From the NCBI GenBank assembly GCA_903837285.1, contig CAILUD010000039.1, positions 50,004-114,003 on the forward strand: a stretch of 64,000 bases of DNA, read 5' to 3'. The translations under genes and the position numbers were made by a program. Within the stretch, counting starts at the first letter, position 1; each line of letters begins with the position of its first letter. Below are positions 2-31,546 of this stretch, piece after piece. Below the pieces are notes generated by a model. The model was not told the origin of the DNA and did not search any database. It was given only the letters and a program-made list of their open reading frames with translations. The DNA is from an uncultured Bacteroidota bacterium (GTDB lineage: Bacteria; Bacteroidota; Bacteroidia; Bacteroidales; GWA2-32-17).

Positions 2-3000
2 TATTTATGGTCTTATACACAACCTTCGTTTGCAGGTACTTTTAATCTTGTAGGCGAAGGTATTAGGCAGCCAATAGATTTACAGCCAAATAGAATATAC
101 CAGATGGATATTAGATATAGAACTTCTAATAATAACAATAATAATATTAGTGGGTTGGTAAATGCTTTTGTTTCAAATGTAAATTACAATGTATGTTTAA
201 ATGGAAATACTGGAAGTGGAACTCTTTATGGGACAGAAATCGCAGATATACATGATCATGGGTTTGGTTTGTCATTTCCTTCCTCCCTTACTATTCAAAG
301 CACAACAGTTAACTTTCCAACACCAAATACCGTACTTCCAAATTCATTTTTATATGTTTGGCCTACTTCAACACATCTTAATTCAGCTGGAGATACAGTT
401 TTAACTTTATTTTTAGAATTGTATGACATTAAAATTCATTATCCTGCACCTCAATTTTCATATACAAGTAATTGTAACCATACCGTTACCTTAAATAATA
501 CTACTCCACATAGTAATGAAAACATACATAATATTCATTGGAACATATATGATATGACTGGAGGTTTAATTGATCAGGCAAATAATATTGAATCTTATAC
601 ACATACATTTTCTAGTAGTTATAATCAAATTCAAGTTGTAATAGTGTATGATTATATTATGGATAATGGCAGTATAGAATGTACTTGTGATACGACCATG
701 AATATTGTTTTTCCTCAGTTAAATGTAAATATTACTGGTCATCAAAATAATATTTGTTCAAATGACAACCATTCCTATGTAACTGCTAACGCAAGTAACG
801 GTACTGCACCATATTCCTACCTTTGGAATACAACCGCAACAACTGCAACAATTATTAATCTTCCATCAGGAACATATTCTGTAACAGTAACTGATGCAAC
901 TGGATGTACTGGTACTGATAATTTTATAATTACCGGAGCACCAAATCCAGTTATAAGTTTAATTTCACCACAAACTCCCTGTTTTCAACAGTGTAATGGA
1001 ACTATTGTTTCAACAGTAACAAATGGTACACCTTCCTATACATATAATTGGAGTAATGGAAGTCATACAGCAAATTTAATCCAACTTTGCTCTGATTCTT
1101 ATACTGTAACTGTAATAGATGGAGTTGGATGTACTTCAACAAATACAATTAGTCTATCAACAAATCCTCAAATAAATATTACAACTTCGTCATTTCAGAA
1201 TGAATGTTCGGGACAAAGTAACGGAAGTATTTATGTTGCGGTTACAGGAGGTACTCCTAATTATATTTATAATTGGTCAAATGGTCAAAATACAAATTCA
1301 ATTATTAATTTAGTAGCTGGAAATTATACTGTAACTGTTACAGATGCTAATGGCTGTACTGCTTATACTACATTTATTGTAAACAGTTTATCAGTACCGA
1401 TAATTACTCCTACTGTTACACCTTCTGATCCTTGTGTATCTTTATGTAACGGGAGTATTATTCTGAATGTAACTCCCCTAGACTCGTATTCATATTTATG
1501 GTATTATAATGGAAATATAGATGCAACAACACAAAATATACCTACAGCATGCTTAGGAGGTTATACTGTGGTTGTTACAAGTAATGCAACTGGTTGCTCT
1601 GTGACACAACCTATTGCTGTAAATTCATTGTCAATTTGCCATGCAGGTACAGATACTTATATTAGTTCAGATCTTCTTATACCAGGTAATTCTGGAATTA
1701 TTTATGTTCCAGGAAATATATTTATTACAAATAATGCCACTCTGACAATTTCGGGTCCTAATACCGAACTAAGATTTATGTCAAACAAGAGAATTGAGCT
1801 AGATAAAGGATGTTCTTTAAAATTATTCAGACATTCAAAGTTGTCATCATGTTGCAATATGTGGGATGGAGTAAAGGCAATAAATAATGCTGCAGCATAT
1901 CCCAATACTGTATTTATTTCGCAAAGTACTATTGAAAATGCCGTCATTGGGATTAATGCTTACGATTATTCGAAGGTATTAAGTTATAGATCATATTTTA
2001 TAAATAACTATGTTGATTTCTATTTAAATAAAACAAAGATATCTCATGTAATAGATTCATGTACATTTGAAACTAACATACCGCAACTTCCTTATGTATT
2101 TTACCCATCATATGTTCAAAATCCATATGCTCACATTTATACTATTAAAAATGCAAATAAATTGAATATCAAAAGGAGTTATTTTAGAAACACAACCCCA
2201 TTTTTAACTACAGATATAGCATGGAAAAAGGGAATGGGAATATATTCTGATTTGACACAGGTAAATGTATCTCATTCAGAATTTACCAAATTATGGTATG
2301 GGGTTAAATCTAATTATATAACAAAAGTTGATACAAATATTTTTAATGGTAATAATCGTGGAGTATTAATTGAAGGACTTAATTCTGCAACACGAATTAT
2401 TTTTAACCAATTTACTATTACAAATAATGGAAATCAATATACTTCTGCTACGTACCCATGGGGAGCAGGTGTTTCAAATAGCATTGGTTATGAAATAGAA
2501 AACAATGAGTTTAAAAATGGGTTTATTGGTCTTGCTATGATAGGTAATGCAGCCACAGGTCGTAAAGTGTATAAAAACTCTTTTGATAGCCTCGAACATG
2601 CTTTTGTTGCCAACGGAACAAATAGCGTTAAACTAACCTGTAACGATTTTGGCTTAACCGTTCCTAATATTACAAGTAATATTCTTTTGTGGTATGGGTC
2701 TATTAATCCAAAACAGGATCATGCACCTTATTGGGATGCTTATGGAATATCTATCAACTCTCACAACCGTTTTTCTACAAGTAAAGATTTATTGCCAGAT
2801 TCACGAAAGTTTAACAGATATGGGTCAACCCAGACTTATGATTATTATTGGGGTGTATATCCAACGCCATATAACGATTTAACAAGAATTTCTCCACCTT
2901 CATGGACTCCTGTTACCTATGTTACCTTACATCCTGCTTTAAATCCATCGGAATATTACAATTCCTTAAATTGCTTAACTGAAATCAACGGAAATAAATC

Positions 3001-4129
3001 AGTTGGTAAAGAATTAACAAAGGTTGATTTATTAAAAGACGCTCTTACGTACCGCAATAATTATTATAATGCTTTGGTTGATAATGGTAATACCGATTAT
3101 TTATTATCGTTAATACAGAATATGAAACCAAACAATTTTAATTTTGCATACAATCAACTGATGAATGCGTCACCTTATCTTTCAGACGCTGTATTAATAC
3201 AATTTATGATTAATCCAATAAATAAACCTCCCTTTAAAAAGGATGTTGTGCTAGCAAACTCACCGCTTCCATTAAATGTACGACCATACATCAATCAAAT
3301 GAATGTAAATCAGAACTTCAAAAACCAGATGTGGGCGGCACAGGTTGGAACAAGCCCACGTGTAGCAATTGAAATGGAACTCGAAAACAGGGATTTTGGA
3401 ATAAATGGCATATTCGGCGACCTTGTTCAATCGGTTTTAATGGATACTATTCCCCAAAAAACGGACAGTCTGTTGAGTTATGTGTTACAAAAAGGTTCGC
3501 TTAACGAAAGATTGATTACTGACCCTGTTTTTATTGAAAAAGAACGGTACGTCGATGCCCAGACAAATCTAACCGAAATTTCTTATTTAAACCAAACAGG
3601 TAACCAACAAATAGTCGATTTTATTCAACTGCAACAATTGCAAATACTATTAAACCAAACGCCAGATAGTTTACAAAAGAATGTAATTTTGCAAAACGAA
3701 GATTGGATTAATTCAATAGCTAATGATTCTACTCATTTCTGTATGGCAGATGCTTTAAACTTACTTGAAAAAGCAAACGATACATTATATCCGAGAAATG
3801 TTTATATAGGTACGGGAGCACAATTAAAAGTGACGGAATTTTTAAATAATGGAGTTAGTGAAAATGATGAAAAAGAAGAATGTAGTCTTACTGTTACTCC
3901 TAATCCGGCAAAGTCAACCGTAAGCTTTATTGTAAATCCTGATGAAATTACAGAAAATATGAGAATTTCAATTTATGATGTACAGGGAAGATATATACAG
4001 GAAGTTGAAATAAAAACATCAAAAGAAATTTATTTGATGGATATAAATAATTATAAAAAGGGAATTTATTATGCTTCACTTCGTATAAACGATAATATAT
4101 TATGTGTGCGTAAATTAATTGTTGAATAG
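2..4129 (+). CDS. T9SS type A-sorted surface protein with SprB-like repeats (5' truncated by window)
   Basis: Large exported surface protein. The frame is open from base 2, upstream of the first ATG at 104, so the real start lies outside the window. Four SprB-like modules of about 65 residues follow one another at roughly bases 740-1630, each with a central YxYxW strand and ending in a YTVTVTDxxGC-type strand. Bases ~1660-2700 encode an irregular strand-rich stretch compatible with a right-handed beta helix. A more helical region follows (~3000-3850). The last ~80 residues are a T9SS type A sorting domain (VTPNPAKSTVSF, ISIYDVQGR, KKGIYYASL). SprB repeats are known from gliding adhesins; cell-surface display by T9SS is inferred from the tail, and the ligand is unknown. 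The stop is immediately followed by the ATG of the next gene, so the two are probably co-transcribed. Confidence 0.85.
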   Translation, partial: YLWSYTQPSFAGTFNLVGEGIRQPIDLQPNRIYQMDIRYRTSNNNNNNISGLVNAFVSNVNYNVCLNGNTGSGTLYGTEIADIHDHGFGLSFPSSLTIQSTTVNFPTPNTVLPNSFLYVWPTSTHLNSAGDTVLTLFLELYDIKIHYPAPQFSYTSNCNHTVTLNNTTPHSNENIHNIHWNIYDMTGGLIDQANNIESYTHTFSSSYNQIQVVIVYDYIMDNGSIECTCDTTMNIVFPQLNVNITGHQNNICSNDNHSYVTANASNGTAPYSYLWNTTATTATIINLPSGTYSVTVTDATGCTGTDNFIITGAPNPVISLISPQTPCFQQCNGTIVSTVTNGTPSYTYNWSNGSHTANLIQLCSDSYTVTVIDGVGCTSTNTISLSTNPQINITTSSFQNECSGQSNGSIYVAVTGGTPNYIYNWSNGQNTNSIINLVAGNYTVTVTDANGCTAYTTFIVNSLSVPIITPTVTPSDPCVSLCNGSIILNVTPLDSYSYLWYYNGNIDATTQNIPTACLGGYTVVVTSNATGCSVTQPIAVNSLSICHAGTDTYISSDLLIPGNSGIIYVPGNIFITNNATLTISGPNTELRFMSNKRIELDKGCSLKLFRHSKLSSCCNMWDGVKAINNAAAYPNTVFISQSTIENAVIGINAYDYSKVLSYRSYFINNYVDFYLNKTKISHVIDSCTFETNIPQLPYVFYPSYVQNPYAHIYTIKNANKLNIKRSYFRNTTPFLTTDIAWKKGMGIYSDLTQVNVSHSEFTKLWYGVKSNYITKVDTNIFNGNNRGVLIEGLNSATRIIFNQFTITNNGNQYTSATYPWGAGVSNSIGYEIENNEFKNGFIGLAMIGNAATGRKVYKNSFDSLEHAFVANGTNSVKLTCNDFGLTVPNITSNILLWYGSINPKQDHAPYWDAYGISINSHNRFSTSKDLLPDSRKFNRYGSTQTYDYYWGVYPTPYNDLTRISPPSWTPVTYVTLHPALNPSEYYNSLNCLTEINGNKSVGKELTKVDLLKDALTYRNNYYNALVDNGNTDYLLSLIQNMKPNNFNFAYNQLMNASPYLSDAVLIQFMINPINKPPFKKDVVLANSPLPLNVRPYINQMNVNQNFKNQMWAAQVGTSPRVAIEMELENRDFGINGIFGDLVQSVLMDTIPQKTDSLLSYVLQKGSLNERLITDPVFIEKERYVDAQTNLTEISYLNQTGNQQIVDFIQLQQLQILLNQTPDSLQKNVILQNEDWINSIANDSTHFCMADALNLLEKANDTLYPRNVYIGTGAQLKVTEFLNNGVSENDEKEECSLTVTPNPAKSTVSFIVNPDEITENMRISIYDVQGRYIQEVEIKTSKEIYLMDINNYKKGIYYASLRINDNILCVRKLIVE

Positions 4130-5941
4130 ATGAAGCATTCATTGTTGTTATTCATATTGTTACTGTTGGGAAAACTTGTATTTTCCCAACAGTATTTAAA
4201 CAGTACTTACATTACACAAGGATTGGCATATCCTCCTACTAATATAATTCCAACAGATAGTGGTTATATTATTGGCTCTTCTACTGCAAATACAATATAT
4301 TTATTAGATTCTTCAGCAAATGAAAAATGGTTTAAACAATATCCACTTAGTTTGCCCGGAGGATATGGTAATTTAATATCTGATAATAATGGGAAGTATA
4401 TTGCTTCCGGCACTTTACAGGGTGGTATTGATGGAGCATATTTAATTAAATTCAATAATTCTTTCGATACTATTTATTCAAAAATATTAATTACAGAAAC
4501 AATTTGTAGTAGTTGTTTATCTATGGTTCACTGTTTTGTAGACAACAATGGAAAATACATTCTTTTAGGGCATAATTCAAGAGACAGTAGCGGTGTGTCA
4601 ATTCCTGATGTTGATGCGCTTTTTATAAAAACGGATACATCCGGTACAATAATAAATCATAAATTAATTGGGCCTTCTAATAATGCTGATTGGTTCAACA
4701 CTGGTCTTCAAATGGGTAATAACTACTATTTGTTTGGCGGAACATATAGTTATGCGCCAGGTAGTGTTGTAGGTATGGATAGAACGGATGGATGGATAGT
4801 AAAAACAGATTTGCAGGGAAATGAAATTTCAAGTGCTGCGTTTGGGAATCCGAATATATATGATCATGATTTTATCTTTACCCTTAAAACACATCAGAAC
4901 AAATTGCTTACAGGAGTAGATTATGGTATTGCAAAACATTCAAGCGGCTTTAGAATGTTTAAACCAAGATTATTAGTTTTAAATGATGATTTAAGTGTTT
5001 ATAAAGATCTGTTTTTTAAGAATTCATATGTGTCAAATGATACTTTATTTAATAGTTCAATTGTAGATGGAATTCTGAACATTGATTCAACATATACTTT
5101 TTTAGGAAGAGATGTTGCAGTAAGTATTTCAACTCATAGTGGATTACACTCAAATGGATTTGTTTTAAAATTAAATAAAAGTTTAAAAGTTTTATATTTT
5201 CGTAATTATATTCATAATGGCGGTAATTATACGAGTATTATACCTACAGTAATTGCATCAACGGCTGATAGTGGATATATATTTGGTGGTTATGTTAATG
5301 ACAATACCTTAACCCCCTCTCAGCAATCGTGGCTTGTAAAAACCGATAGTCTCGGTTGCGATGGTTTTCATAGTTGTGATGATACAACTTTAGTTTGTCA
5401 AATATTACAAGCACCAGATACGGCATGTAAAAATGACACATCATGGATACATGTAAAATTTAAAGGAAGAAGCGCACCATATTTTATTTATGCAAATACA
5501 ACACTTGCATTGGATAGTGTTTATTACCCATACACTTTACCTTTATGGATAGATACACTTATGCCATATTTCCCAACAACAACAGGCATGCAACAAGTAA
5601 TTGTTAAACTACAAGACCCCTGGGGTTGGTATCAAACTGATACCGTACAGATATTTGTAAAAAACTGCGGATCTGGAAGTATAGAGGAAACATGGTATCC
5701 TAAAAAAGTAGAAGTCTTTCCAAATCCTGCTACAAATGAATTACATGTAAAAATACGTTCTGCAATAACCACTCCTGTTTCTATAACAATTTACGATATG
5801 CAAGGTAAAGTTGTAAAACAAATTGCAACGAAACTTAACGAAACGGTAATAAATATTAGTGGGTTAAAAGAAGGGGTATATGGGATAAGGGTCGTTGGGG
5901 ATAATATAACTGTGAGTGATAGATTTGTGAAATTAGAGTAA
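4130..5941 (+). CDS. T9SS type A-sorted secreted protein, propeller-like
   Basis: Exported protein of 603 residues. A clear signal peptide (MKHSLLLFILLLLGKLVFS, then QQY) supports the ATG at 4130, which directly abuts the stop of the upstream gene. Residues ~25-430 hold repeats of the type SGYIIGS / GKYIASG / DSGYIFGG and KTDxxG, as seen in beta-propeller-like secreted Bacteroidota proteins. A Cys-containing segment (LGCDGFHSC) follows, then a short Ig-like region. The C-terminus is a type A sorting domain (VEVFPNPATNELHV, ITIYDMQGK, LKEGVYGIRVV). No catalytic motif was seen. Coupling with the SprB-repeat protein suggests both are surface-exposed parts of one structure; this is inference. Confidence 0.85.
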   Translation: MKHSLLLFILLLLGKLVFSQQYLNSTYITQGLAYPPTNIIPTDSGYIIGSSTANTIYLLDSSANEKWFKQYPLSLPGGYGNLISDNNGKYIASGTLQGGIDGAYLIKFNNSFDTIYSKILITETICSSCLSMVHCFVDNNGKYILLGHNSRDSSGVSIPDVDALFIKTDTSGTIINHKLIGPSNNADWFNTGLQMGNNYYLFGGTYSYAPGSVVGMDRTDGWIVKTDLQGNEISSAAFGNPNIYDHDFIFTLKTHQNKLLTGVDYGIAKHSSGFRMFKPRLLVLNDDLSVYKDLFFKNSYVSNDTLFNSSIVDGILNIDSTYTFLGRDVAVSISTHSGLHSNGFVLKLNKSLKVLYFRNYIHNGGNYTSIIPTVIASTADSGYIFGGYVNDNTLTPSQQSWLVKTDSLGCDGFHSCDDTTLVCQILQAPDTACKNDTSWIHVKFKGRSAPYFIYANTTLALDSVYYPYTLPLWIDTLMPYFPTTTGMQQVIVKLQDPWGWYQTDTVQIFVKNCGSGSIEETWYPKKVEVFPNPATNELHVKIRSAITTPVSITIYDMQGKVVKQIATKLNETVINISGLKEGVYGIRVVGDNITVSDRFVKLE

Positions 5942-7697: not shown

Positions 7698-7738
7698 AAA
7701 AGCCGGGTAATTTGATATTATCCGGCTTTTATTTTTTT
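7698..7738. terminator. Bidirectional terminator between convergent genes
   Basis: AAAAGCCGG (7698-7706) pairs with CCGGCTTTT (7722-7730). There is a T-rich tail on plus and the equivalent (TTTTTTATTT) on minus. It sits between the stop of siaC (plus) and the stop of the ABC transporter (minus). Confidence 0.85.
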
Positions 7739-10700
7739 AGTTTGTTCTTCTTTTTGATTCTTTCAGAAGTCCATTCTCCTAGTTCTAATAGTCTTCTTAA
7801 TAGATTAAAATATAGGCAAATGAATAATACAATTGACATTAGCCAAATTACTGCTATGTTAACCCAGAAAGTATCGAAATATTTGCCAAAAACCATTTTA
7901 CGTGGTGCATAAAAATGTGCAGCTAAAATACCGCCTGGTGTATCAAAAAATATAGGATCAGCTTTTTGATATAATCTGTGGTCGTACTCAATAATTTTTA
8001 CACCTTCATTCTCATTTCTAACAAACTCTTTTAAATTTTCATTGTAATATTCTTTCTTTAGCTGAATAAATTCTTTATTTGCTTTTTCAGTATTTGTTAA
8101 CTTAGCCGAAAGCCTATCTTTTGCTTCGCTTGCTTTCTTGTATTTTTGAATATAATATTTATTTAATTCATCAAAATAAAAAACTAACTTATCAATTACC
8201 ATGTTGTTAACTTTTCCGTATACTAAATTTGAAACTGTAACAGGTAGCGGAATTTTCTTATTTGTTTTAACTTCAACTGAAAGCTCATTTCTTAAAAGTA
8301 ATAAATTGTCTTCTATTAAATCTTTTTTATTCTTATCATTAAGCAATCTCTTTACATCCGAAACTTTATTTCGCATAGATACAAGCCAGAAATCTTTTTT
8401 AAAGTTTGAAGAACTCATGATTTTCTCATAAGCATAAAACTGTTTTTCATATTTGTTTTCGCGAAACTGGTACACGGCTAACGCCTCATATGCCCATCTG
8501 GCAGTAATAATTTGTCCGTAAATTGGAATGTGGCTTGGGCTACTAATATCAGGATTAAGTTTGTCAAATTTAAAAATTATACCACTTAATATAAGTTGAG
8601 GTATTACTAAAAAAGGAATTAATATATATATTGTTACAGCAGAATTAAATGCATCAGATATATTAAGACCTAAAATATTTGAAAAAACCCAGGCACTAAA
8701 TAACACTAACCAATATTGCCAGTACATACCCTGAATTTCTAGAACAGAGTTTCCTATAATCACAAAAATAGCTGCTTGTATTGCAGATAGTACAGTGAGT
8801 ATTGCAACTTTTGAAAACAAATAACTGCCCCAACTTAAATTCAGGTATTTTTCACGTTTTCTGATTTTTCTGTCTCTAAAGATTTCTTCAGCACTAACGG
8901 TTAATCCAATAAAAATGGAAATAATTACCGACATGAAAATAAAAATGGAAATATTACTGTTTTCGCTAAAAGAATAGCCAGTATCATTAGCGGCATCAAT
9001 ATTATAATATTTAATAATGTATGAAAGAAGTAGAGCTAAAAGAGGCGCTTCTAACAGATTAATAAGCAGATATTGAGTGTTAGAAAGTTTAGATAGTACA
9101 TCTCTAACTACAAATACTTTAAATTGTTTTATTTTTCCGGGAACTTTAAAAAATATTTCAGGAAGTCTGTAATGTGATTTCTCTTCTTCTGTTTTTGCTT
9201 CTAGTTTAACATGATATTTATTATAACTACCAAGCCATTCGTTTGGAGAGAATTTACGGGTATGAGTCATGTTTCCATACTCATCAAGCACATTTGCTTC
9301 TACTATATTAAATATTTGTTCTGGATTAACATTACCACAGGTTGGACATTCACTTTCGCTCCAGTTTGCCTGGTGGGTTCTTGATTTAAAGTAAATTATA
9401 GAATCAACCGGATCTCCATCATAAATTAAATATCCACCAGTATCAAGTATCAGTAGTTTATCAAACATTTTAAAAATATCTGATGATGGCTGATGAATAA
9501 CAACAAAAACTAATTTCCCTTTTAAAGTTAAATCTTTAAGTAAATCAAGTATGTTTTCAGAATCTCTTGATGATAAACCAGAAGTTGGTTCGTCAAGAAA
9601 AAGTATTGAAGGTTCTCGAATAAGTTCTAATGCAATATTTAAACGTTTACGCTGACCACCGCTGATTTTTTTATTCATCGGGTTTCCAACTTTCATGTGT
9701 TTTATCTTATACAAACCAAGGCTTTGCAGGGTTTTAAGAACTATTCTTAAAATTTGAAAGTGGCTAAGATTATCAAAACAAAGTTTTGCGTTGTAATATA
9801 AATTTTGGAATACAGTTAAATCTTCAATAAGTAAATCGTCCTGAGAAACATAGCCAATTAATCCTTCTATTGATTCGTCTTTTGAATAAATACTAATATC
9901 ATTTATTAATATTTCTCCACTTGTTGGGGGATACGAACCATTTAAAACATTCAATAAAGTTGTTTTTCCTGCTCCGCTGGCTCCCATAATACCTACCAGG
10001 TGTCCAGATTCTTCAAGAAAATTCATGTCATGCAGACCAATACCTCCACCTTTAAAAGCATACTCGATATTTCTGGCTTCGAATATAATTTTCGATTTAA
10101 GTTTGTCTTCATTAAAAATACTGAGAATATCTGAGTAGTAAATAGGAGAGATTTTAGCCGAACGAATTGAACTACCATTTGTTAGTACATATACTTTTTG
10201 CAAATGAATTAACTGCCCATTTAAATATAATTCCTTTTCGCCTAAATATTTTAAAAGGAACATGTTTGCAATTCTAACATGGAATACTCGAATCTGACCT
10301 TGTAAGCCTGAGCGATATAAATGTTTTGCTTTAGGATGATTAAACTCTTTTTGGCTGTCAACCAATAGCATTCTTGTAGAATTAGGAACCTCGTCAAAAG
10401 TGTATAGAATAAATGCTTTTAAACGAATATACTCTTCGGAAACAATGTGAAATGTATCAGCAACTGTTTCTACAAATTCTTGTTCTTGCTCAGAAATTTC
10501 GTCGGAGTCTGATTTTATAAATTCAAGTAAACGAACAACAACTATTATCTTTTGTTTTTGAGTTAGTTCTTCGTTTATTTCTGTACAAATTTTTAAAACT
10601 TTTACAGAACTTCCTGCAATTCTCTTTTTTCGTAAAGTGCTGTCGGTTTGTTTTGCCTGATATTGTTCATAGTAATTATTAAATACCTTTAAGTATTCGT

Positions 10701-10830
10701 TAACTAATTCGCTATTTAATTGTTGAAGTAAAAATGAACCAACTACAGACCTGCGTTCTTCGGCATTACTCTCTGGACGAGCAATGATTGCAAACAACTG
10801 CATTAGGGCCTTTAGTATTCTTTCGCTCAT
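7729..10830 (-). CDS. ABCG-type ABC transporter (ATPase-permease fusion) with N-terminal TerB-like region
   Basis: 1033-residue half-transporter in the ABCG order, ATPase before membrane domain. Residues ~80-145 look like a TerB/DjlA-type helical domain (LLEFIKSDSDEISEQEQEFV). A short strand-rich stretch follows (~170-245), then the ATPase with Walker A GASGAGKTT (~283-291), signature ISGGQRKR, Walker B LFLDEP, and VIHQPS at the switch region. A short Cys pair (ECPTCG) follows. The C-terminal half has about six membrane segments (for example IFIFMSVIISIFIGLTVSAE) with a long soluble insertion before the last. Substrate unknown. Bacteroidota have many of these ABC2-type proteins with extra N-terminal domains. 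Confidence 0.85.
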   Translation of the reverse strand: MSERILKALMQLFAIIARPESNAEERRSVVGSFLLQQLNSELVNEYLKVFNNYYEQYQAKQTDSTLRKKRIAGSSVKVLKICTEINEELTQKQKIIVVVRLLEFIKSDSDEISEQEQEFVETVADTFHIVSEEYIRLKAFILYTFDEVPNSTRMLLVDSQKEFNHPKAKHLYRSGLQGQIRVFHVRIANMFLLKYLGEKELYLNGQLIHLQKVYVLTNGSSIRSAKISPIYYSDILSIFNEDKLKSKIIFEARNIEYAFKGGGIGLHDMNFLEESGHLVGIMGASGAGKTTLLNVLNGSYPPTSGEILINDISIYSKDESIEGLIGYVSQDDLLIEDLTVFQNLYYNAKLCFDNLSHFQILRIVLKTLQSLGLYKIKHMKVGNPMNKKISGGQRKRLNIALELIREPSILFLDEPTSGLSSRDSENILDLLKDLTLKGKLVFVVIHQPSSDIFKMFDKLLILDTGGYLIYDGDPVDSIIYFKSRTHQANWSESECPTCGNVNPEQIFNIVEANVLDEYGNMTHTRKFSPNEWLGSYNKYHVKLEAKTEEEKSHYRLPEIFFKVPGKIKQFKVFVVRDVLSKLSNTQYLLINLLEAPLLALLLSYIIKYYNIDAANDTGYSFSENSNISIFIFMSVIISIFIGLTVSAEEIFRDRKIRKREKYLNLSWGSYLFSKVAILTVLSAIQAAIFVIIGNSVLEIQGMYWQYWLVLFSAWVFSNILGLNISDAFNSAVTIYILIPFLVIPQLILSGIIFKFDKLNPDISSPSHIPIYGQIITARWAYEALAVYQFRENKYEKQFYAYEKIMSSSNFKKDFWLVSMRNKVSDVKRLLNDKNKKDLIEDNLLLLRNELSVEVKTNKKIPLPVTVSNLVYGKVNNMVIDKLVFYFDELNKYYIQKYKKASEAKDRLSAKLTNTEKANKEFIQLKKEYYNENLKEFVRNENEGVKIIEYDHRLYQKADPIFFDTPGGILAAHFYAPRKMVFGKYFDTFWVNIAVIWLMSIVLFICLYFNLLRRLLELGEWTSERIKKKNKLKK

Positions 10831-22058: not shown

Positions 22059-25000
22059 TTAGCGCAACAAATTAACTAAGCCATTCTTAGTAAGAACTTT
22101 ACCACTATAAGTGCCAGCTTTGGCTGTATATGCGTAAGTGTCAATGTTTTGCTTTGTTCCTTTGAAAGTTCCATCCCAGCCAACATGTATGTCATCGGTT
22201 TCGAAAATACATTCACCCCAACGGTTGTATATTTTAAATTCTAGTAACTGTTTTATTCCCCATCCACGTACAAATACCAAATCGTTGTCTCCATCACCAT
22301 TTGGTGTAAAAGCTGAAGGTACATCAATTGAATATTCTTCTTTTACTTCTATTGTTACTTGACCAGTAACATGGAAGCATGTCATTGAATCAATTATTTC
22401 AACAGTATAAGTTGTAGTTGTTAATGGCTGAGCAACGGGATTAGGACAAGTTGTACATGATAAGCCATAAGAAGGTGTCCAGTTATATGTTACAGATGTC
22501 TGATCAGAATTTGCAATCATATCAACAAACTCTCCTATAATAATAGTAGTATCTGGATTATGATATAACTCTGGTACCTGCTGAACAAAAACAAAAACCG
22601 AATCGGTATTTGAACATCCACGTGCATCGTGAATTAATGCCTGATATGACACAGAACTGTCAGGTGTTGCAAAAGGTGTATGAACAGTAGGATTAGACAA
22701 ACTATTTGATGGAGTCCAGGAAATAACATCTCCACCAATAGCATTTAACTGAACTGTACTTCCTGCACAAATTGCAACATCATCACCAATTGTTAACTGA
22801 GGTAATGGATAAACTAAATAATGTTTTGTTATGCTATCTATACAGCCAACTGTACTATTATATACTGTAAGTGTAATATTGTAATCGATGTTATTATTTG
22901 TTTGATTATAAAAAGTATGTGTTCCAGGCACTATTGAAGAATCAGTACTGGTAAATGTTTGTCCATCTCCAAAACTCCATATCATACTATCGGCACCAAT
23001 TGAATAATTATAAAAATCGAGTAAGCCTGGCTGACAAATAACTGAATCATTACTGCCGGTTATACTATTCAGATAATTATAATTTGCCATTACCTGATAT
23101 ATATTAATGTATACAGAATCTTTTTTCTGACAATTAATATCACTTTGGTAAATCAGATAAACTTTTGTAAGTCCACTTGGAGGAACATAATTAAACTGAT
23201 ATGTAAAAGGTGTTGTTGTGCCACCACCGCCATCACCAAATGACCAGTTAAAAGAAGTAACACCAATATTATTTACTAATGCAAAAGTAATTGACTCACC
23301 TTTACAGATTGAACTATCAGAATATGAAATTTCTGAATATGGTCCGCCAACATGAATTGGAATACTATCTTTGCTAGTACAACCATAAAGATTTTGAGGT
23401 GTAGTTATAGCTGTTAAATTAAGCCAATAATCTCCGGGTAAAGTGTACGTATGAATTGGTTGAAATTGATTTCCAGTGCTGCCATCACCAAAAGACCATT
23501 CCCATATAGGAGAATACAAACTGTTAGTGAGATTTGTTATACTTATGCTAAATGGATAGCATGTAGAAATTGAATCAATAACATTAATATTTGCAAAAAT
23601 ATCCTGAATATGAATAAATGAAGGCTTTATTTCAGAGCCACTGCAACCTGGAAGTGTACTCTGGGTTAAAAGCGAAACAGTATATGTTCCGGTATCAGCA
23701 TATAAATGCGAAGGATTTAAACCTATATCGGTATTTGAATCTCCAAAATCCCAGATATATCCATTTGAGAATTGTGCATTTGAAATAAAGTGAATTGAAT
23801 CGCCTAAACAAATGGTACTGTCGATAGCTGAAAAATCTGGAGGTATGTTTAATACAAAAACCGGATGCCCTGCAACACTCGAGGTACATCCAATAGAATC
23901 TGTAACTACAAGAGATGTCATGTATGTACTTGGAATATTATAAGTAAAAGTCGCTGTAGTTCCCGTAGTTGAACCAATTCCACCGGAAAACCATGTTGAT
24001 GTATATGGTATCTCAGAATGACTTGTATCTGTAAAATTAACAACTAATGGAGCACAACCCGAATCAGGAGTCATGGTATAACCCGCTACAGGATAATATA
24101 TTCTAATGGTAGTAGTATCGCTATCTATACAACCCAAGAAATTATGCATTGTTAAAATAATATTATAAGTACCATTTACCATTGGGTAATTATGCATATA
24201 AACCTGGCCAAATGGATTAAATGTGGTATAAGATGTAGTCTGCCCATCTCCATAATTAACTGTATAGTCTGAATTTTGTGGAGTCGGACCAGAATGATCC
24301 CAATCTTTTGAGTTTGTAATAGTTATTACATTACTGTTATAACAATGTGGAGTAGGAGCAGAAACCACAGCATCAATAACATATACCCTGTATGGAATAC
24401 TGTCTTCATAAAAGCAACCCGTTATATCGTTAAAGGCAATAAGATGCACCATATACGTTCCTCTAGAAGGAAAATCATACCAGACAGTATCATTATATGA
24501 ATAAACAGGTGTAGCAAAATTACTGGAATCATCATAAACACCATCGTCATTAAAATCCCAATACCATCTGTTTGCCTTTTTTATATGATTATAAGTAAAA
24601 CCAATATGCAATGGTGTTGAACAAGATTGAAATATTGCACTAATGTCCCCAATAAATGGACCTTTCAAATAAAATGCATTTGTATCAACAATAGTGTCTT
24701 TACATTCCAAATACCCAACAATTAACTGAATAGAAATTGAGTCCAAACCATGAAAATCAACAGTTGGATGTTGATCAGTACTTGTTGCAACTGTAAAATT
24801 TGAATCGGGAAGATTAGCAATAAAACTCCAGTCCCAAAAATCAATTAAATTAGAATCTGTTGATAAACTAACAAAGTGCACGTTTGTATCATTTGCACAA
24901 CCAAGACTATAAGTATTTTGAATAATTGGAATTTGATGTGAACCTACTTTTATTGTAACCGATGTAGTTTTTGGGCAACCCGAAGCGGTTGTCACTGTAA

Positions 25001-26534
25001 GGGTTATAGTATATTCGCCAGGAGTGGTATAAATATGATTTGGATTCTGAAGTGTTGAAGTTGTACCATCTCCGAAATTCCAACTCCAACCTGAAATTGG
25101 AATGCTGTCATAAACTGGATTGCATGTGCCTGCGCCTGTAAAATCAACAGGAAATGGAATGCAATGATTAGGTAACGAATCGCTATCCCAGCTAATGCTT
25201 GCAGTAGGAAATTCAACAGTAATCGGACTAGGATCAGTGTAAGTGCCAATACAACCATGACTATCAATTATGGTCAATGATGCAGTATATGAACCTTCAT
25301 TAGGATATGTTATAATAGGGTTTTCTAATGTACTGGTAATATTATCCCCAACATTCCAAAACCAACTTACTGCATCTGGTGAATTATCAGTAAAAGTAAC
25401 AGGCATTGTAGGGCTACAAACATAATGTGGTGTTGGAGAAATACTAAATGTAACCGTTGGGCGATTCCTTATTATAATAGTATCTTTTATCATCGATTCA
25501 CAAAGAGTACCCGGAGCAGCAAGCATAGTTATAATATATGGGCCTGGTTGCAAATATGTATGAGTTGGATTTAGTAAATTTGATGTGTTTGTTCCAGAAG
25601 TTACATCTCCAAAATTCCAGCTGGCAGCAGTTCCTGCATCATTAACAAAATTTACTATCTGACCTGGACAAGCAGAATCGGCAGGAACAGTATGAAAAGC
25701 AGCAATTACCGGGGTAATATTTATATAATTTATTTTAATTAAAGAATCTGAACAACCCCATTTATCTGTTGCAATTAACTTAACAGTATAAACTCCAGCA
25801 ACTGTATATGTATGACTAGGTGACTGAAGAGTTGAACTTCCACCATCACCAAAATCCCATGTATATGTCATGGGTGCAGTTCCTGTTGTTGAATTTGTGA
25901 AAGTTACAGGAAAAGGAACTGTGCAATTAACAGTTGAATTTGCAGTAAAAGCTACATCTGGAGGATTAGAAACATTTACATAATTATTTAATGTGTCCCA
26001 ATTAGAACAGCCATGCGAATCTTCAATTTTTAAATAAATACTCCATGATCCGGGCGTGCTAAAATTATTTGTAGGGTTTTGAATACTTGCTCCATTTCCA
26101 TCTCCAAAATCCCATTCCCATGTATTAATAGTTCCGTCACCAGGCGTAGAAATATCGGTAAAACTTACAATTAAAGGTACGCAACCTTGAAAAGGAGGCG
26201 TTCCATGAAAAATTGCAGTTGGATTTCGCCAAATATGAATTATTTTTGAAATACTATCGCGTAAATTACCATTAATAGCTACTAAGGTTACTGTATATGT
26301 ACCAATGTTTGCATAAATTTCTGTAACATTTGGACTTGATGAATTAGAAGTATTCCCATCACCAAATCTCCATAAATAAGATGTTGCTCCTGTTGATAGA
26401 TTTGTGAAATTTACAGTTTGCTGCTCGCATCCTTCTAAGGTATCCTGAGTAAAAGCAGCAACTTGACCAAATGTGTTATTGGCTAAAAGGAATAAGAAAA
26501 ATGGAAAAACTAAATATTTTAGAAGAAAATTCAT
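22059..26534 (-). CDS. Giant PKD-repeat surface protein with T9SS type B (CHU_C) C-terminus
   Basis: Exported adhesin-like protein of ~1490 residues. The ATG at 26534 is preferred over 26582 because it gives a proper signal peptide (MNFLLKYLVFPFFLFLLANN, cut near TFGQ). About 14 PKD-like modules follow, most with WxFGDGxxS and HTYxxxGxYxVxL strands and a closing GCxD. The last ~90 residues are the gliding-motility-associated C-terminal domain (VPSAFTPNGDGDNDLVFV, FKIYNRWGE, GWDGTFKG), a type B T9SS signal. Type B cargo in flavobacteria depends on PorP/SprF-type partners, and such a gene lies divergently 155 bases away. Ligand unknown. Confidence 0.9.
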   Translation of the reverse strand: MNFLLKYLVFPFFLFLLANNTFGQVAAFTQDTLEGCEQQTVNFTNLSTGATSYLWRFGDGNTSNSSSPNVTEIYANIGTYTVTLVAINGNLRDSISKIIHIWRNPTAIFHGTPPFQGCVPLIVSFTDISTPGDGTINTWEWDFGDGNGASIQNPTNNFSTPGSWSIYLKIEDSHGCSNWDTLNNYVNVSNPPDVAFTANSTVNCTVPFPVTFTNSTTGTAPMTYTWDFGDGGSSTLQSPSHTYTVAGVYTVKLIATDKWGCSDSLIKINYINITPVIAAFHTVPADSACPGQIVNFVNDAGTAASWNFGDVTSGTNTSNLLNPTHTYLQPGPYIITMLAAPGTLCESMIKDTIIIRNRPTVTFSISPTPHYVCSPTMPVTFTDNSPDAVSWFWNVGDNITSTLENPIITYPNEGSYTASLTIIDSHGCIGTYTDPSPITVEFPTASISWDSDSLPNHCIPFPVDFTGAGTCNPVYDSIPISGWSWNFGDGTTSTLQNPNHIYTTPGEYTITLTVTTASGCPKTTSVTIKVGSHQIPIIQNTYSLGCANDTNVHFVSLSTDSNLIDFWDWSFIANLPDSNFTVATSTDQHPTVDFHGLDSISIQLIVGYLECKDTIVDTNAFYLKGPFIGDISAIFQSCSTPLHIGFTYNHIKKANRWYWDFNDDGVYDDSSNFATPVYSYNDTVWYDFPSRGTYMVHLIAFNDITGCFYEDSIPYRVYVIDAVVSAPTPHCYNSNVITITNSKDWDHSGPTPQNSDYTVNYGDGQTTSYTTFNPFGQVYMHNYPMVNGTYNIILTMHNFLGCIDSDTTTIRIYYPVAGYTMTPDSGCAPLVVNFTDTSHSEIPYTSTWFSGGIGSTTGTTATFTYNIPSTYMTSLVVTDSIGCTSSVAGHPVFVLNIPPDFSAIDSTICLGDSIHFISNAQFSNGYIWDFGDSNTDIGLNPSHLYADTGTYTVSLLTQSTLPGCSGSEIKPSFIHIQDIFANINVIDSISTCYPFSISITNLTNSLYSPIWEWSFGDGSTGNQFQPIHTYTLPGDYWLNLTAITTPQNLYGCTSKDSIPIHVGGPYSEISYSDSSICKGESITFALVNNIGVTSFNWSFGDGGGGTTTPFTYQFNYVPPSGLTKVYLIYQSDINCQKKDSVYINIYQVMANYNYLNSITGSNDSVICQPGLLDFYNYSIGADSMIWSFGDGQTFTSTDSSIVPGTHTFYNQTNNNIDYNITLTVYNSTVGCIDSITKHYLVYPLPQLTIGDDVAICAGSTVQLNAIGGDVISWTPSNSLSNPTVHTPFATPDSSVSYQALIHDARGCSNTDSVFVFVQQVPELYHNPDTTIIIGEFVDMIANSDQTSVTYNWTPSYGLSCTTCPNPVAQPLTTTTYTVEIIDSMTCFHVTGQVTIEVKEEYSIDVPSAFTPNGDGDNDLVFVRGWGIKQLLEFKIYNRWGECIFETDDIHVGWDGTFKGTKQNIDTYAYTAKAGTYSGKVLTKNGLVNLLR

Positions 26535-26663
26535 TTCAAATATTATTAATTGTGCAATATAGATAAAAACCCTTAAACACAAAAACTGAATTTAAAAACT
26601 TTTCTAACAATGCATTAATAATAAATTTTAGTAATTTTATTATTACTAATGTATAAAAAATAC

Positions 26664-26671
26664 TATTTTTG
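26664..26671 (+). promoter_or_regulatory. -7 element (TATTTTTG) upstream of porP/sprF
   Basis: Exact TAnnTTTG, 18 bases before the GTG start. No convincing -33. Confidence 0.55.
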
Positions 26672-26688
26672 CCCGATTAAGATTAAGA

Positions 26689-27699
26689 GTGAAAAAGTTT
26701 AAATATATTTTATTAATAGTTTTTTTAGCAGTTACGTCAATAAAACTTACTGCTCAGGATATTCATTTCTCGCAATTCTATGCTTCTCCACTCTCTTTAA
26801 ATCCAGCTTATACCGGTAATTTTGATGGCGATTGGCGAATTACAAATAATTACCGTAACCAATGGAGAGCATTGTCAATTCCTTTTAGAACAATTTCTTT
26901 TGGTTTCGATAGACAATTCTGGCTTCATTCAGAAAAATTTAGCGGTGGAATTTTTGTTGTTAACGATAAATCTGGACCTGCTGGATTAACCGTTAACAAG
27001 CTTTTTTTATCATTTGCATGGCATAAAACAATTAACGGACATAATTTACATACAGGTATTCAGGGTGGGTTAGTATTTAAAAGCTTTTCAATGGATGCTC
27101 TTACTTTTCCCAGTCAGTTTGATATGACAACCGGTTATTTTAACAACCAATTGCCAGTAAACGAGAGTACCACTAATTTAGGTACAAATTATCCCGATCT
27201 GAACTTTGGAATTGGCTGGAGCAAAAAACTCAGATTTTTTGAACCAGAAGCAGGATTATCATTTTTTCATTTAACAATGCCAAAAGAATCTTTTCTCGAA
27301 AACAATAATCGTTTACCAATTAGAACAGCTTTAAATTTAGGTTTAAATATCCCAATTAAAAACTGGTTTGCTCATCCAATGGTGCTTTTTATGAAACAAA
27401 TTAGAGCTACCGATTTTTTAGCTGGTTTTGAGTTTGGATATAATTTACCAAAATCAAGAGTTATAAAACAGGTGTTTGCTGGGTATTTTTTCAGAAACGA
27501 TTTTTCTACTGCTTTTGATGCTTCAATTGCTGTTATCGGACTTCAATATAAACAGCTTAGACTAGGGTTTAGTTATGATATTAACTCGTCAGCATTAAAA
27601 GCTGCAACAAATCACAAAGGAGCTTTTGAAATTTCACTTATTTATATTTCAAAAAGCACAATTCCACAAAAAGTCACACTTCCATGCGACAGATTGTAA
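26689..27699 (+). CDS. PorP/SprF family type IX secretion membrane protein
   Basis: 336 residues, starting at GTG 26689. The signal peptide ends at LTAQ. The mature N-terminus DIHFSQFYASPLSLNPAYTG is the family hallmark, and the rest is an outer-membrane beta barrel (FGFDRQFWLHSEKFSGGIF, LNFGIGWSKKL, GLQYKQLRLGFSYDI). In Flavobacterium, SprF is needed for surface attachment of SprB; in Porphyromonas, PorP works with the T9SS core. Placed between the type B adhesin and a PorE-like gene, it is probably the dedicated outer-membrane partner for that adhesin. Confidence 0.92.
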   Translation: MKKFKYILLIVFLAVTSIKLTAQDIHFSQFYASPLSLNPAYTGNFDGDWRITNNYRNQWRALSIPFRTISFGFDRQFWLHSEKFSGGIFVVNDKSGPAGLTVNKLFLSFAWHKTINGHNLHTGIQGGLVFKSFSMDALTFPSQFDMTTGYFNNQLPVNESTTNLGTNYPDLNFGIGWSKKLRFFEPEAGLSFFHLTMPKESFLENNNRLPIRTALNLGLNIPIKNWFAHPMVLFMKQIRATDFLAGFEFGYNLPKSRVIKQVFAGYFFRNDFSTAFDASIAVIGLQYKQLRLGFSYDINSSALKAATNHKGAFEISLIYISKSTIPQKVTLPCDRL

Positions 27700-29840
27700 T
27701 AAATAAACTTTTTAATTTATTTGTCAGAAATTTTATTTCTCTGATTATAATTTTGTCGGTATTTTCTGTAAGTTGTTATGCTCAGCCAACTGAAACTATG
27801 AAGCATTTGAGCAAATGGAAAGTTAAAGGTTTTGCAAAAAATTCACAACGTCTTGGCGATACATATTCTGCTATAGAATATTTTGAAGAGCTTCATAAAA
27901 ATCAGCCTAACAATACTGATTATTGTATGTCGTTAGGGCATTTATACTACAAAGCTAGAAATTATCCAATGGCAAAAGAATATTATTCTATTGCATATGA
28001 TAACGATAAAGAAGTTTTTACCGATGCATTATATTTTCAAGCCTTAATGGAGAAAATGATGGGCGATTATGATAAAGCAAAAGAAGATTTTCAAAAATTT
28101 ACAAAAGCAGCAAAAGGAACCAGTTTCGAACAGGATTATAAAAAAATAACAAAGAACGAAATTGAGGGTTGCGATCTAGCAAAAAGAAAACTCGATTCTG
28201 CTTTAAAAGTTGTAATTTCTCACTTAGATACATCTATTAATAAAGCACATGTTGAGTTGTCGCCATACCCAATGGGAAAAGATAACATTATATACGGATC
28301 ATTAAAAGCAGATACAATTAAATATATTGATTTGCAGGATAGCTCACAAAAAATGCCTGTTCGACAGATTTATACCGCAAAAAGAATTGGCGATAAATGG
28401 CAGTCGACTGGAATATTTGATGGTCCAATTAATAAACCCGACGAGAATACTTGCAACGGTGCATTATCGCCAGATGGAAATCGCTTTTATTTTACCAGAT
28501 GCAAACAAAACTGGAAGAGTAAAACTATCTGCGAAATATATTTAAGTAAAAAAACAGAAGGAACATGGGGCGAACCTGAAAAATTAAATGCAGAAATTAA
28601 CGACCCAAAATTTACTTCTACTCAACCTTCAATAGGAACAGATTCTAAATTAAATGCCGAAGTTTTGTATTTTGTTTCGGATAGGGATGGTGGACGTGGA
28701 GGTTCAGATATTTGGTATTCTGTTTACAACGAAAAAAAGAATCTTTACCGTTCTCCACGTAATGCCGGAAGTAGAATTAATACTATTGGAGAAGAAACTA
28801 CACCATTTTATGATATGGATAGCCGAACTATGTATTTTAGTTCTACCGGATGGCCTGGCATGGGTGGGTTCGATGTTTTTAAAAACACTGGCGAATTAGG
28901 TACATGGATAAATCCTGTTAATATTGGCTTTCCTATTAATTCAAGTACCGATGATATTTATTTTGTTATAGGAAAAAATAAAGAAGAAGGTTTTTTGGTT
29001 TCAAATCGTAAAGGTGGTGTTGCTTTATTAAGTGAAACTTGTTGCGACGATATTTACGAGTATAAATGGTCAGAGTATATTCATGTTGGTGTTACAGGAA
29101 AAATTTTCGCAATAAAAGATAGTGCTATTTACAAACAACTCGAACATCAGATCGAAGAAACGAAATTTATTAATGATGATGATCCTTTTGAAAAAATTGA
29201 CCCGCTTCATAAACAAGCAGTAAATCTGTTTTTAGTTTCAGAAGGAAAAGAAAGAATTTTTATTAAAGCAGATACTACAGATATAGAAGGTGAATATTTC
29301 TTTGATATTGAACCGGGAAAAGAATATAAAATAGTTGTAGAAAATTTTGGAATGTTTAATAAAGAACTTACTGTTGATACACGAAAGGTTATTAAATCTG
29401 ATACCTTACGTTTAGATGCAATTTATATTAACATTCTACCTAAAGAACCAATTGTTATTAAAAATATTTATTACGATTTTGATGATTGGAAACTTTTGCC
29501 AAGTTCGATGTTAGTAATTGATACAACATTATTAAAAATATTAATGGATAACCCCAGAATCGTTGTAGAAATTGGCTCGCACACTGATAGTAAAGGTGAA
29601 GATAAATACAATGAAAAACTTTCTCAACGACGTGCAGAAAGTGTAATAAAATATCTTATTGAAAAAGGCATTGACAAAGAACGGTTATTTGCAAAAGGTT
29701 ATGGCGAAAGTATTCCTATAGCAGTAAACGAGAACCCAGATGGTAGCGATAATCCAGAAGGCAGACAAATGAATCGCAGAACAGAATTTAGAATTGTAGG
29801 ATCGCTCGACCAATACTCTAAAGTTATTTATCAAGAGTAA
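27684..29840 (+). CDS. PorE-like OmpA family protein (TPR, PD40 propeller, carboxypeptidase-like, OmpA)
   Basis: 718 residues, overlapping porP/sprF by 16 bases. Domain order is an N-terminal signal (possibly lipidated at SVSC), TPR-like helices (~50-150, SLGHLYYKARNYPMAKEYY), PD40 propeller blades (~195-450, LSPDGNRFYFTRC, LYFVSDRDGGRGGSDIW, MYFSSTGWPGMGGFDVF), a carboxypeptidase-regulatory-like fold (~465-585) and an OmpA peptidoglycan-binding domain (~590-718, VEIGSHTDSKG, LSQRRAESVIKYL). This is the same architecture as PorE of Porphyromonas, which binds PorP and peptidoglycan. It would anchor the PorP/SprF partner to the cell wall. Confidence 0.9.
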   Translation: MRQIVINKLFNLFVRNFISLIIILSVFSVSCYAQPTETMKHLSKWKVKGFAKNSQRLGDTYSAIEYFEELHKNQPNNTDYCMSLGHLYYKARNYPMAKEYYSIAYDNDKEVFTDALYFQALMEKMMGDYDKAKEDFQKFTKAAKGTSFEQDYKKITKNEIEGCDLAKRKLDSALKVVISHLDTSINKAHVELSPYPMGKDNIIYGSLKADTIKYIDLQDSSQKMPVRQIYTAKRIGDKWQSTGIFDGPINKPDENTCNGALSPDGNRFYFTRCKQNWKSKTICEIYLSKKTEGTWGEPEKLNAEINDPKFTSTQPSIGTDSKLNAEVLYFVSDRDGGRGGSDIWYSVYNEKKNLYRSPRNAGSRINTIGEETTPFYDMDSRTMYFSSTGWPGMGGFDVFKNTGELGTWINPVNIGFPINSSTDDIYFVIGKNKEEGFLVSNRKGGVALLSETCCDDIYEYKWSEYIHVGVTGKIFAIKDSAIYKQLEHQIEETKFINDDDPFEKIDPLHKQAVNLFLVSEGKERIFIKADTTDIEGEYFFDIEPGKEYKIVVENFGMFNKELTVDTRKVIKSDTLRLDAIYINILPKEPIVIKNIYYDFDDWKLLPSSMLVIDTTLLKILMDNPRIVVEIGSHTDSKGEDKYNEKLSQRRAESVIKYLIEKGIDKERLFAKGYGESIPIAVNENPDGSDNPEGRQMNRRTEFRIVGSLDQYSKVIYQE

Positions 29841-29875
29841 AATTTCTTATCCCCATATTTAAAAAACAAATAATT

Positions 29876-30238
29876 ATGAAGAAAATAATCATTGTTTTTG
29901 CTTATCTATTATTTGTTTTAAATGGTTTTTGTCAGCAAAATATTAAGATAATGGTTGCCGGAAAATCTAGTGGTATTATTACAATTAAAGAATTAAATGA
30001 AGCAAAAAAGATCACATTAAATACTGATACAATTAAAATAATTTCATTTAAATTATCCTGTATAGTAAATGGTTTTTTTAAAACAATTGAAATAAATAGT
30101 GATAGCTTAAATGCAGAATGTTATAATATCCTTAACAACCAAGCTGGTAAAAAAATATTTTTTGAAGATATAGAAGGCGTACTTAACAATGGGAAGCAGG
30201 TTTATTTGGGTACTATTGCATTTAAAGTAGTGCCATAG
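29876..30238 (+). CDS. Small exported protein resembling the GldM C-terminal domain
   Basis: 120 residues with a signal peptide (cut near GFCQ). The mature ~100 residues begin IKIMVAGKSSGIITIKELNEA and end KKIFFEDIEGVLNNGK..LGTIAFKV. This spacing matches the last domain of GldM/PorM, where a serine/thr-rich turn, a glycan-like SFxL strand and a final VYFENIKAxGPDG..IxFxV block occur. It is a free-standing, soluble version without the membrane helix and the other GldM domains. It follows the PorE-like gene by 35 bases in the same direction. The family match is from memory and needs a profile search. Confidence 0.55.
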   Translation: MKKIIIVFAYLLFVLNGFCQQNIKIMVAGKSSGIITIKELNEAKKITLNTDTIKIISFKLSCIVNGFFKTIEINSDSLNAECYNILNNQAGKKIFFEDIEGVLNNGKQVYLGTIAFKVVP

Positions 30239-30325: not shown

Positions 30326-30898
30326 TCACATTTTCAACTTCTTCATAACAAATTTTGGAATTACTTTTTTTTCTTTGTAATCTTTTAAAGTAACATACAA
30401 ACTTTTCCTGGTCCATGTCGAAAGTGTATCTATAGTCAATATTGGCATAACAATAAAGCATGCAGCCGAACAGCCTAAAGTTAAAACAGCTGCTGTTGAA
30501 CTAAAAAACATAAATGAAATCCCAAGTGCCATTCCTGCAAAAGGTAAAGGCTCGGCACATAAAAAAACTGTTGCTGTTTCTCTTTTCTTAAAAAACAGAT
30601 TAATTATTGCAATTGAAGTATCATTTGTACCATATGTATTAAGAAATTCTTTTTTGTTTAATTCAAATAAATTTCTTGGAATAACCACATTTTTCTTTAA
30701 ACTATCATGTGGAATTATAATCTCAAATTCTTGTTCTTGTATATTATTATCATTAAAAATAATTGTGTCACAATTTATATCAGAAGAATCAATTTTTAAT
30801 TCATAGCATAAATTAATCGTATCAACATTATTAGTATTATCCTGCGAAAAGGATTTAAAAAAACTTATTATAATTATTATTAATAGGAATATTCTCAT
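30326..30898 (-). CDS. Exported/membrane protein of unknown function, paralogue B
   Basis: 190 residues with a signal-like N-terminus (ISFFKSFSQ), a shared block EFLNxYGTNDTSIAIINLFF, two hydrophobic segments (~115-155) and a basic C-terminus (KKVIPKFVMKKLKM). It is clearly a tandem copy of the gene at 30920 (the YGTNDTSIAIINLFFK segment is identical). I do not recognise the family. Both lie on minus downstream of the N-acetylglucosamine kinase gene. Confidence 0.75.
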   Translation of the reverse strand: MRIFLLIIIIISFFKSFSQDNTNNVDTINLCYELKIDSSDINCDTIIFNDNNIQEQEFEIIIPHDSLKKNVVIPRNLFELNKKEFLNTYGTNDTSIAIINLFFKKRETATVFLCAEPLPFAGMALGISFMFFSSTAAVLTLGCSAACFIVMPILTIDTLSTWTRKSLYVTLKDYKEKKVIPKFVMKKLKM

Positions 30899-30919
30899 TA
30901 TACATTTAATTTGTTATAA

Positions 30920-31546
30920 CTAATTAGATTTAAAGTATTTATTTTTCAATTTCTTCTTTACAGATTTGGGAATTACTTTATTTTTATTATTGTAGTCATT
31001 TAATATAAGATATAAGCGTTTTCGATTCCAGGTTGCAAGCAATTCTGCTCCAGCAACTGGTAGTGCAACAAATCCGAAAACTGAAACCGCCATAATAGAA
31101 ACTCCTATATACATAGAAAAAAATGAGCTGGAATATCCACCAACACTGTTTATCCACATTACCATAACCCCGCCACCAGCTGTTACAGGAGTTATAGGTT
31201 CAATTAAAAGTAAAACTTTTGCTATTTTTCTTTGTTTGAAAAACAAATTAATTATTGCAATTGAGGTGTCATTTGTTCCGTATGCATTAAGAAATTCTTC
31301 TTTATTTAATTTATAAAGCTTTTTATCAAAAATTACATTTTTCTTAGAGCTATCGTGGGGAAAAATATTTTCTAGATCTTGTTTTTGGATATTCGCAATT
31401 TCAATAATTGTTACTGAATCATTATTCAAGTTTAAAGAATCAACTGTAAATTCTCTATTTAAATCAATAGAATTCAAACTGCCTACTTTATCTTGTGAAA
31501 AAGATTTAAGAGAAATTAGTAATATAATCAGGATAAAATATTTCAT
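30920..31546 (-). CDS. Exported/membrane protein of unknown function, paralogue A
   Basis: 208 residues, same plan as its neighbour: signal peptide (SLKSFSQ), an acidic/polar linker, LNKEEFLNAYGTNDTSIAII, two membrane segments (~125-175) and a basic tail (VIPKSVKKKLKNKYFKSN). The hydrophobic middle has diverged from the paralogue while the flanks are conserved. It is separated from the kinase by 12 bases and from the second copy by 21, so all three are probably one transcript. Confidence 0.75.
   Translation of the reverse strand: MKYFILIILLISLKSFSQDKVGSLNSIDLNREFTVDSLNLNNDSVTIIEIANIQKQDLENIFPHDSSKKNVIFDKKLYKLNKEEFLNAYGTNDTSIAIINLFFKQRKIAKVLLLIEPITPVTAGGGVMVMWINSVGGYSSSFFSMYIGVSIMAVSVFGFVALPVAGAELLATWNRKRLYLILNDYNNKNKVIPKSVKKKLKNKYFKSN

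Follow-up and report, generated by a model that had tools for sequence, protein, structure and literature searches.

In T9SS and gliding biology a single rotary motor has to serve a range of carriers, both mobile and static ones. In published work, isolated D4 of PorM is monomeric and suffices alone for the binding of PorN (PMC5790014), and PorM S460C cross-links to PorN A241C (PMC12421860). Work on the carriers proposes that PorP units linked to PorE hold type B cargo static, whereas SprF-type carriers move (PMC9143113, PMC12618676), and describes tail cysteines of SprF and PorG that are disulfide-linked to GldK (PMC12635249). For F. johnsoniae, 'extra orthologues of porM' are mentioned (PMC5790014). 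A search of open-access literature, covering titles, abstracts and passages, found no account of free-standing GldM tips or of STAND/nSTAND1-GldM fusions.

The window is the whole stretch of DNA that was analysed, 64,000 nucleotides long (C39:50004-114003), and belongs to a genome (G000) of 4.3 Mb in 233 contigs. Within 22059-30238 it carries four genes: a PKD cargo on the reverse strand and, divergent from it, porP/sprF, a porE-like gene and the gene of a 120-residue D4 protein (Table 1). This layout, reported in a preliminary description of the locus, is confirmed. The start of the cargo was moved from 26582 to 26534, where the orthologues in G001 and G004 begin, and the protein passes the cut-offs of both CHU_C (50.6 versus 27) and TIGR04131 (50.2 versus 35); its neighbour on the far side is dnaA. 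PorP scores 161.5 with TIGR03519 (cut-off 90.55) and 136.9 with PF11751 (cut-off 22.3). The porE-like protein presents its TPR, propeller and OmpA parts in the order of PorE and scores below the curated PorE model NF052230 (297.4 bits versus 600), as well as below the cut-off of its best NCBIfam model, CHU_0125 (316.6 versus 620). The GldM of this genome is encoded on another contig than the D4 gene, with GldN adjacent to it. Elsewhere the window contains two consecutive type A sorting-domain proteins, the first with SprB repeats (104-5941), and a 1,033-residue protein that combines a TerB-like domain, an ABC transporter ATPase and an ABC-2 membrane part (7729-10830).

Table 1. Positions of the features discussed; window numbering, except for the two fusion proteins, which are given by locus.
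Feature	Position	Strand	Basis or remark
Type B T9SS cargo, PKD-repeat, ~1,491 aa, C-terminal CHU_C	22059..26534	-	Domain matches; start from orthologues
porP/sprF-family outer-membrane carrier, 336 aa	26689..27699	+	PF11751 and TIGR03519 above cut-off
PorP tail Cys codon	27685..27687	+	Overlaps porE start codon 27684-27686
porE-like gene (TPR, beta-propeller, OmpA)	27684..29840	+	Domain matches; 16-bp overlap with porP
Free-standing GldM/PorM D4 (tip) protein	29876..30238	+	Predicted signal peptide of ~20 residues, then D4 only
TLNTDTxKI block, residues 47-55	30014..30040	+	Family-specific, near-invariant; aligned at GldM ENFDFDL motif
CIVNG hairpin turn, residues 62-66	30059..30073	+	Aligned with PorM S460
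nSTAND1-GldM fusion, G449	L136:7142-9238		144/62.9/66.6 bits
nSTAND1-GldM fusion, G001 (window's genus)	L027:231-2957		96.5/51.6/48.6 bits; N-terminus probably cut by contig end

The small protein had been described as resembling the C-terminal domain of GldM alone, and this identification stands. Direct family searches were empty: no Pfam model matched the 120-residue protein at E<=1 and the PF12080 cut-off of 24.6 bits was not reached, NCBIfam and a phmmer search against the PDB gave no match, the A1 profile retrieved only unrelated PDB sequences (E>=0.65), and two scans of genome contigs, from which near records were possibly left out, returned no relatives. Consequently, the evidence for D4 comes from comparisons between profiles, across whole genomes and of folds. 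The protein is homologous to GldM D4 (PF12080) at the profile level (hhalign 98.3%, E 1.8e-14), so that the significant GldM_C match whose lack had been named as fatal to the idea does exist; the homology score of 44.0 bits compares with a maximum of 13.0 among 12,000 decoys, and the predicted fold is D4-like. The protein is predicted to be periplasmic and consists of a putative signal peptide followed by about 100 residues of D4, with no TM helix after the signal peptide. Neither D1-D3 nor any other domain was detected in it, and the marks of a GldM/PorM motor (N-terminal TM helix, D1-D3 and a gldL partner in the operon) are absent. Since there is no TM helix and no D1-D3, there is no known route for GldL binding, and D4 could at most occupy or bridge GldN. 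The earlier interpretation is therefore supported in part: the identity of the domain and the locus hold, whereas this anatomy speaks against the proposal that the protein dedicates the T9SS motor to a single cargo.

Two segments of the protein deserve attention. The TLNTDTxKI block, which is not shared with GldM, has 8 of 9 positions invariant versus 24 of 90 in the remaining mature protein (7 sequences; Fisher p 4e-4, a value to be read with the block having been picked after the alignment was viewed). Being family-specific, the block suggests a second, new surface or partner and favours an adaptor. The PorN-contact hairpin, on the other hand, was expected to stand out between this protein family and GldM, and this is not the case: its mean identity is 0.22, no better than that of other D4 regions (0.09-0.33). 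PorM S460, with numbering inferred from the residue numbers of 6EY6, aligns with V64 in CIVNG, and I63, V64 and G66 are invariant in 7/7 members. Invariance of the hairpin within the protein family is nevertheless not significant, for residues 57-69 (7/13 versus 25/86, p 0.07) as for residues 62-66 (3/5, p 0.19).

An unmistakable PorP orthologue (49-97% identity, paralogues <=38%) occurs in all ten genomes of the taxonomic family, the source genome included, and is followed in each by the porE-like gene. The D4 gene is present in three of the ten (G000, G001 and G004, all of one genus), each time directly after porE; no D4 gene of this type was found in the other seven, all with porP and porE. 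Among these seven, the pair stands without the D4 gene in G002, which belongs to the genus, and in G005-G008, G006 having a longer tip protein at another place. At the locus the contigs of G003 (74% complete) and G009 break off too early, and a whole-genome search gave no D4 copy in either. Thirty PorE-like loci, taken from 41 matches in 60 relatives, showed a D4 match in the flanks of three, namely those of G000, G001 and G004, and none in the other 27, some of whose flanks are short. The cargo adjoins the pair in all five genomes of the genus. Every genome with the D4 gene (3/3) shows the arrangement cargo / porP-porE-D4, so that the survey suggested earlier turned out positive within the limit of one genus, and the small gene is not just a random neighbour. 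Six pairs among four D4 copies give a dN/dS of 0.18-0.28, which denotes purifying selection. Past the D4 gene, the genes on the non-porE flank differ among the three genomes while the porE flank is alike. In the window, two ORFs (190 and 208 residues, 47% mutual identity, no Pfam match; 30326-31546) lie between D4 and a conserved block, and nothing corresponds to them at this position in G001 and G004; the relatives carry there ORFs of 534 and 355 residues, whose sole resemblance is a weak match over 75 C-terminal residues. Further out the order is syntenic (88-92% identity). With the porE side constant and the other flank replaced, the junction of porE and D4 has persisted longer than the surroundings on its far side.

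In the window the D4 gene starts 35 bp past the porE-like gene, and porP, porE and D4 are likely, from this spacing, to form one transcript. The gap is 171 bp in G001 and 133 bp in G004, and in both it contains a short palindrome as well as an element of 36 bp that differs by a single base between the two. The element occurs at only three places in the five genus genomes, all beside D4 genes (<=3 mismatches, 26-bp core). The longer gap and the common upstream element suggest that the D4 gene may be expressed on its own in these two genomes. G004 has two tandem D4 copies, and a second copy of the element lies downstream of the pair, within an 81-nt repeat (94% identical) that is followed by an apparent decayed gene start. 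The repeat flanks the tandem pair (L023:8928-9048 and 9787-9890), with signs of repeated local duplication. Two further members of the protein family, P0007 and P0036, are each on a contig of 28,351 bases and probably represent another tandem pair.

The C-terminal tail of PorP holds the only cysteine of the protein (residue 333), and a tail cysteine is found in 10/10 orthologues of the taxonomic family, its own included. It invites the reading of a disulfide with GldK, with the codon overlap as a caution. The 16-bp porP-porE overlap (27684-27699) is likewise present in 10/10 genomes, and the cysteine codon has TG in common with the porE start codon (ATG; GTG in G006). Considering the two frames, the overlap by itself leaves only Cys or Trp for this PorP position, and the invariance of the residue therefore does not prove a function. 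The tail (PCDRL) carries this single cysteine and not the Cys-Xaa-Cys of SprF. A disulfide from it to Cys62 or Cys82 of the D4 protein would be speculation; Cys82 occurs in 7/7 members and Cys62 in 5/7. The GldM structure 6YS8, which we take to be the F. johnsoniae protein, has by eye a cysteine at the Cys82-equivalent place, and the three other D4-only proteins lack equivalents of both, which, together with the constraint on the PorP codon, counts against the idea. A bond of D4 to GldN near PorN A241 is also disfavoured, the sole cysteine of GldN (GLCPI) being distant by inferred numbering. At another place of the source genome (G000:C167:57264-59807), a GldJ-like gene, which at 449.3 bits is below its cut-off of 458.2, comes after a PorP with two tail cysteines. 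With these genes the organism may build a gliding-type track.

PF12080 matches 72 of 296 genomes of the phylum, and among the matches listed all but six are frames of 507-570 residues, the size of GldM. In the order, the mixed profile A2 finds D4 in at least 266 of 295 genomes (matches listed to ~E 1e-24) and the A1 profile has a match in 35 of 295 at E<=1e-4. The short frames among the matches listed yielded at least 15 free-standing tip genes, at 11 or more loci of at least nine further genomes, and others may exist beyond the matches listed (~E 1e-24). Apparent frameshifted GldM genes or contig ends (G465, G481, G487, G477, G056), a contig-start fragment (G459) and weak cases (G042, G076, G436) were left out. 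The tips comprise D4 only in G527, G361 and G546. Tips with both D3 and D4, scoring over or close to the Pfam thresholds, occur in G285, G316 and G563 and, with four and two genes respectively, in G474 and G527, and D4 with weak or undetected D3 occurs in G006 and G025. By eye, several have lipoprotein-type signals. The four D4-only lineages, that of the window included, are all without ENFDFDL in the alignment.

The surroundings of these genes are varied. In G527 (L140:4931-9796) a type A cargo (LTD, CotH, Por_Secre_tail) is followed after 27 bp by the D4-only gene and by two signal-peptide D3-D4 genes. The four D3-D4 genes of G474 have lipoprotein-type signals and are spread over three contigs (L130, L131, L132); on L132 a type A sorting-domain protein precedes the D3-D4 gene by 64 bp. 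In G025 (L144:1136-2774) two tandem lipoprotein-type GldM_4th genes stand between ORFs that resemble, by eye, injection-particle-associated ones, and in G546 a CHU_C adhesin is one gene from the free tip. Considered as PorG-like, the barrel of G361 matched generic barrel models only. Type A cargo is directly upstream within 70 bp at 2/11 free-tip loci (G527 and contig 785 of G474); as each of three genomes examined has at least 150 matches of type A sorting domains, no enrichment of free tips beside T9SS cargo is claimed. Two further proteins join an nSTAND1 NTPase, one predicted TM helix, GldM_3rd and GldM_4th, with all domains over the Pfam cut-offs (Table 1), and their GldM tip would be expected to face the periplasm.

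Tentatively, and with a confidence somewhat short of even, the free D4 protein is regarded as a clutch or cap that would dock on GldN and keep the motor from engaging near the PorP-PorE carrier. The protein would be exported to the periplasm by its predicted signal peptide and, going by the published PorM work, would take the place on GldN to which the tip of GldM itself binds. GldN would then be occupied without a motor, in presumed competition with GldM, and the blocking might be restricted to the neighbouring PorP-PorE carrier, which likely exports one large adhesin and holds it at the surface. As type B cargo is proposed to be static, keeping the motor off would make sense, and a clutch beside a static adhesin carrier seems to need the fewest assumptions. 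It is weakened by the seven of ten genomes in which no D4 gene was found, yet porP and porE are present, and by the possible separate expression of the D4 gene in G001 and G004. The lack of special conservation in the hairpin and the new TLNTDTxKI block also weigh against it and keep an adaptor alive, a reading close to that of the preliminary description. The adaptor would set its old D4 surface on GldN and the TLNTDTxKI surface on PorE or PorP, and so tether the carrier to the ring or track. Although the invariant block lies where GldM has another motif and the gene follows porE in all three genomes, this role is possible but doubtful: a second binding partner is not known, genomes that lack the D4 gene also retain porP and porE, and the D4 gene has its own upstream region in two genomes. 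Competition with the GldM tip is possible and is preferred over it.

The D4 fold might also have been reused, for instance in a periplasmic chaperone or quality control for the adhesin or carrier, with GldN binding lost. The hairpin that is not specially conserved relative to GldM and the absence of ENFDFDL in other D4-only proteins agree with such a change, as does the faster divergence of D4 (dN 0.16-0.37) than of porE and porP (0.02-0.09). The cargo is nearly as fast (0.09-0.24), however, so speed alone says little, and with the fold kept inside a T9SS locus a reuse of this kind is rather improbable. A young duplicate of little consequence, hitch-hiking beside porE, would fit the confinement to one genus and the apparent decayed extra copy in G004; moreover, with at least 150 type A sorting-domain matches and 19 PorP matches in this genome, a gene can readily have a T9SS neighbour by coincidence. 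Such an origin is nonetheless very unlikely given the purifying selection in all six pairs, the persistence next to porE as the genes on the opposite flank were exchanged, and the free-standing tips in distant relatives.

If the clutch or cap is real, a natural motorless tip, kept next to an adhesin carrier that is presumably static, would be a ready tool for testing local blocking of the GldN site, and the GldM-GldN contact would be a hub for other proteins. In its widest form the idea makes the GldM tip a portable docking module of Bacteroidota, by which soluble D4, lipoproteins, membrane-anchored proteins and STAND NTPases would each connect to the GldK-GldN ring or track. A carrier would in this way be uncoupled from the motor at the present locus, and elsewhere an immune-type NTPase could read the ring's state; this generalisation is unlikely as it stands.

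Compared with D4 of GldM/PorM (PF12080; PDB 6EY4-6EY6, 7CMG), the window protein is without D1, D2, D3 and the motor-binding helix, has TLNTDTxKI and not ENFDFDL, stays under Pfam detection and is encoded outside the gldKLMN operon. The free tips of G527, G474, G563, G006, G285, G316, G361, G546 and G025 are alike in lacking the motor part and in having what seems to be a signal for export or an anchor, but none was seen to follow a porP-porE pair and several keep a detectable D3. With SprF and PorG (PMC12635249), PorP of the window has in common one cysteine near the C-terminus that is kept in orthologues, and differs in that it is single and not part of Cys-Xaa-Cys. The closest likeness in arrangement is with PorP-PorE-PG1035 and with the operons of F. 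johnsoniae that combine a PorE homolog, an SprF-like shuttle and a type B substrate (PMC9143113, PMC12618676): the unit is of the same kind and its parts are adjacent. The porE-like protein of the window differs from those described there in scoring below the PorE cut-off and in having, by eye, no lipobox conserved across its orthologues, and to this unit the window locus adds a free D4 gene.
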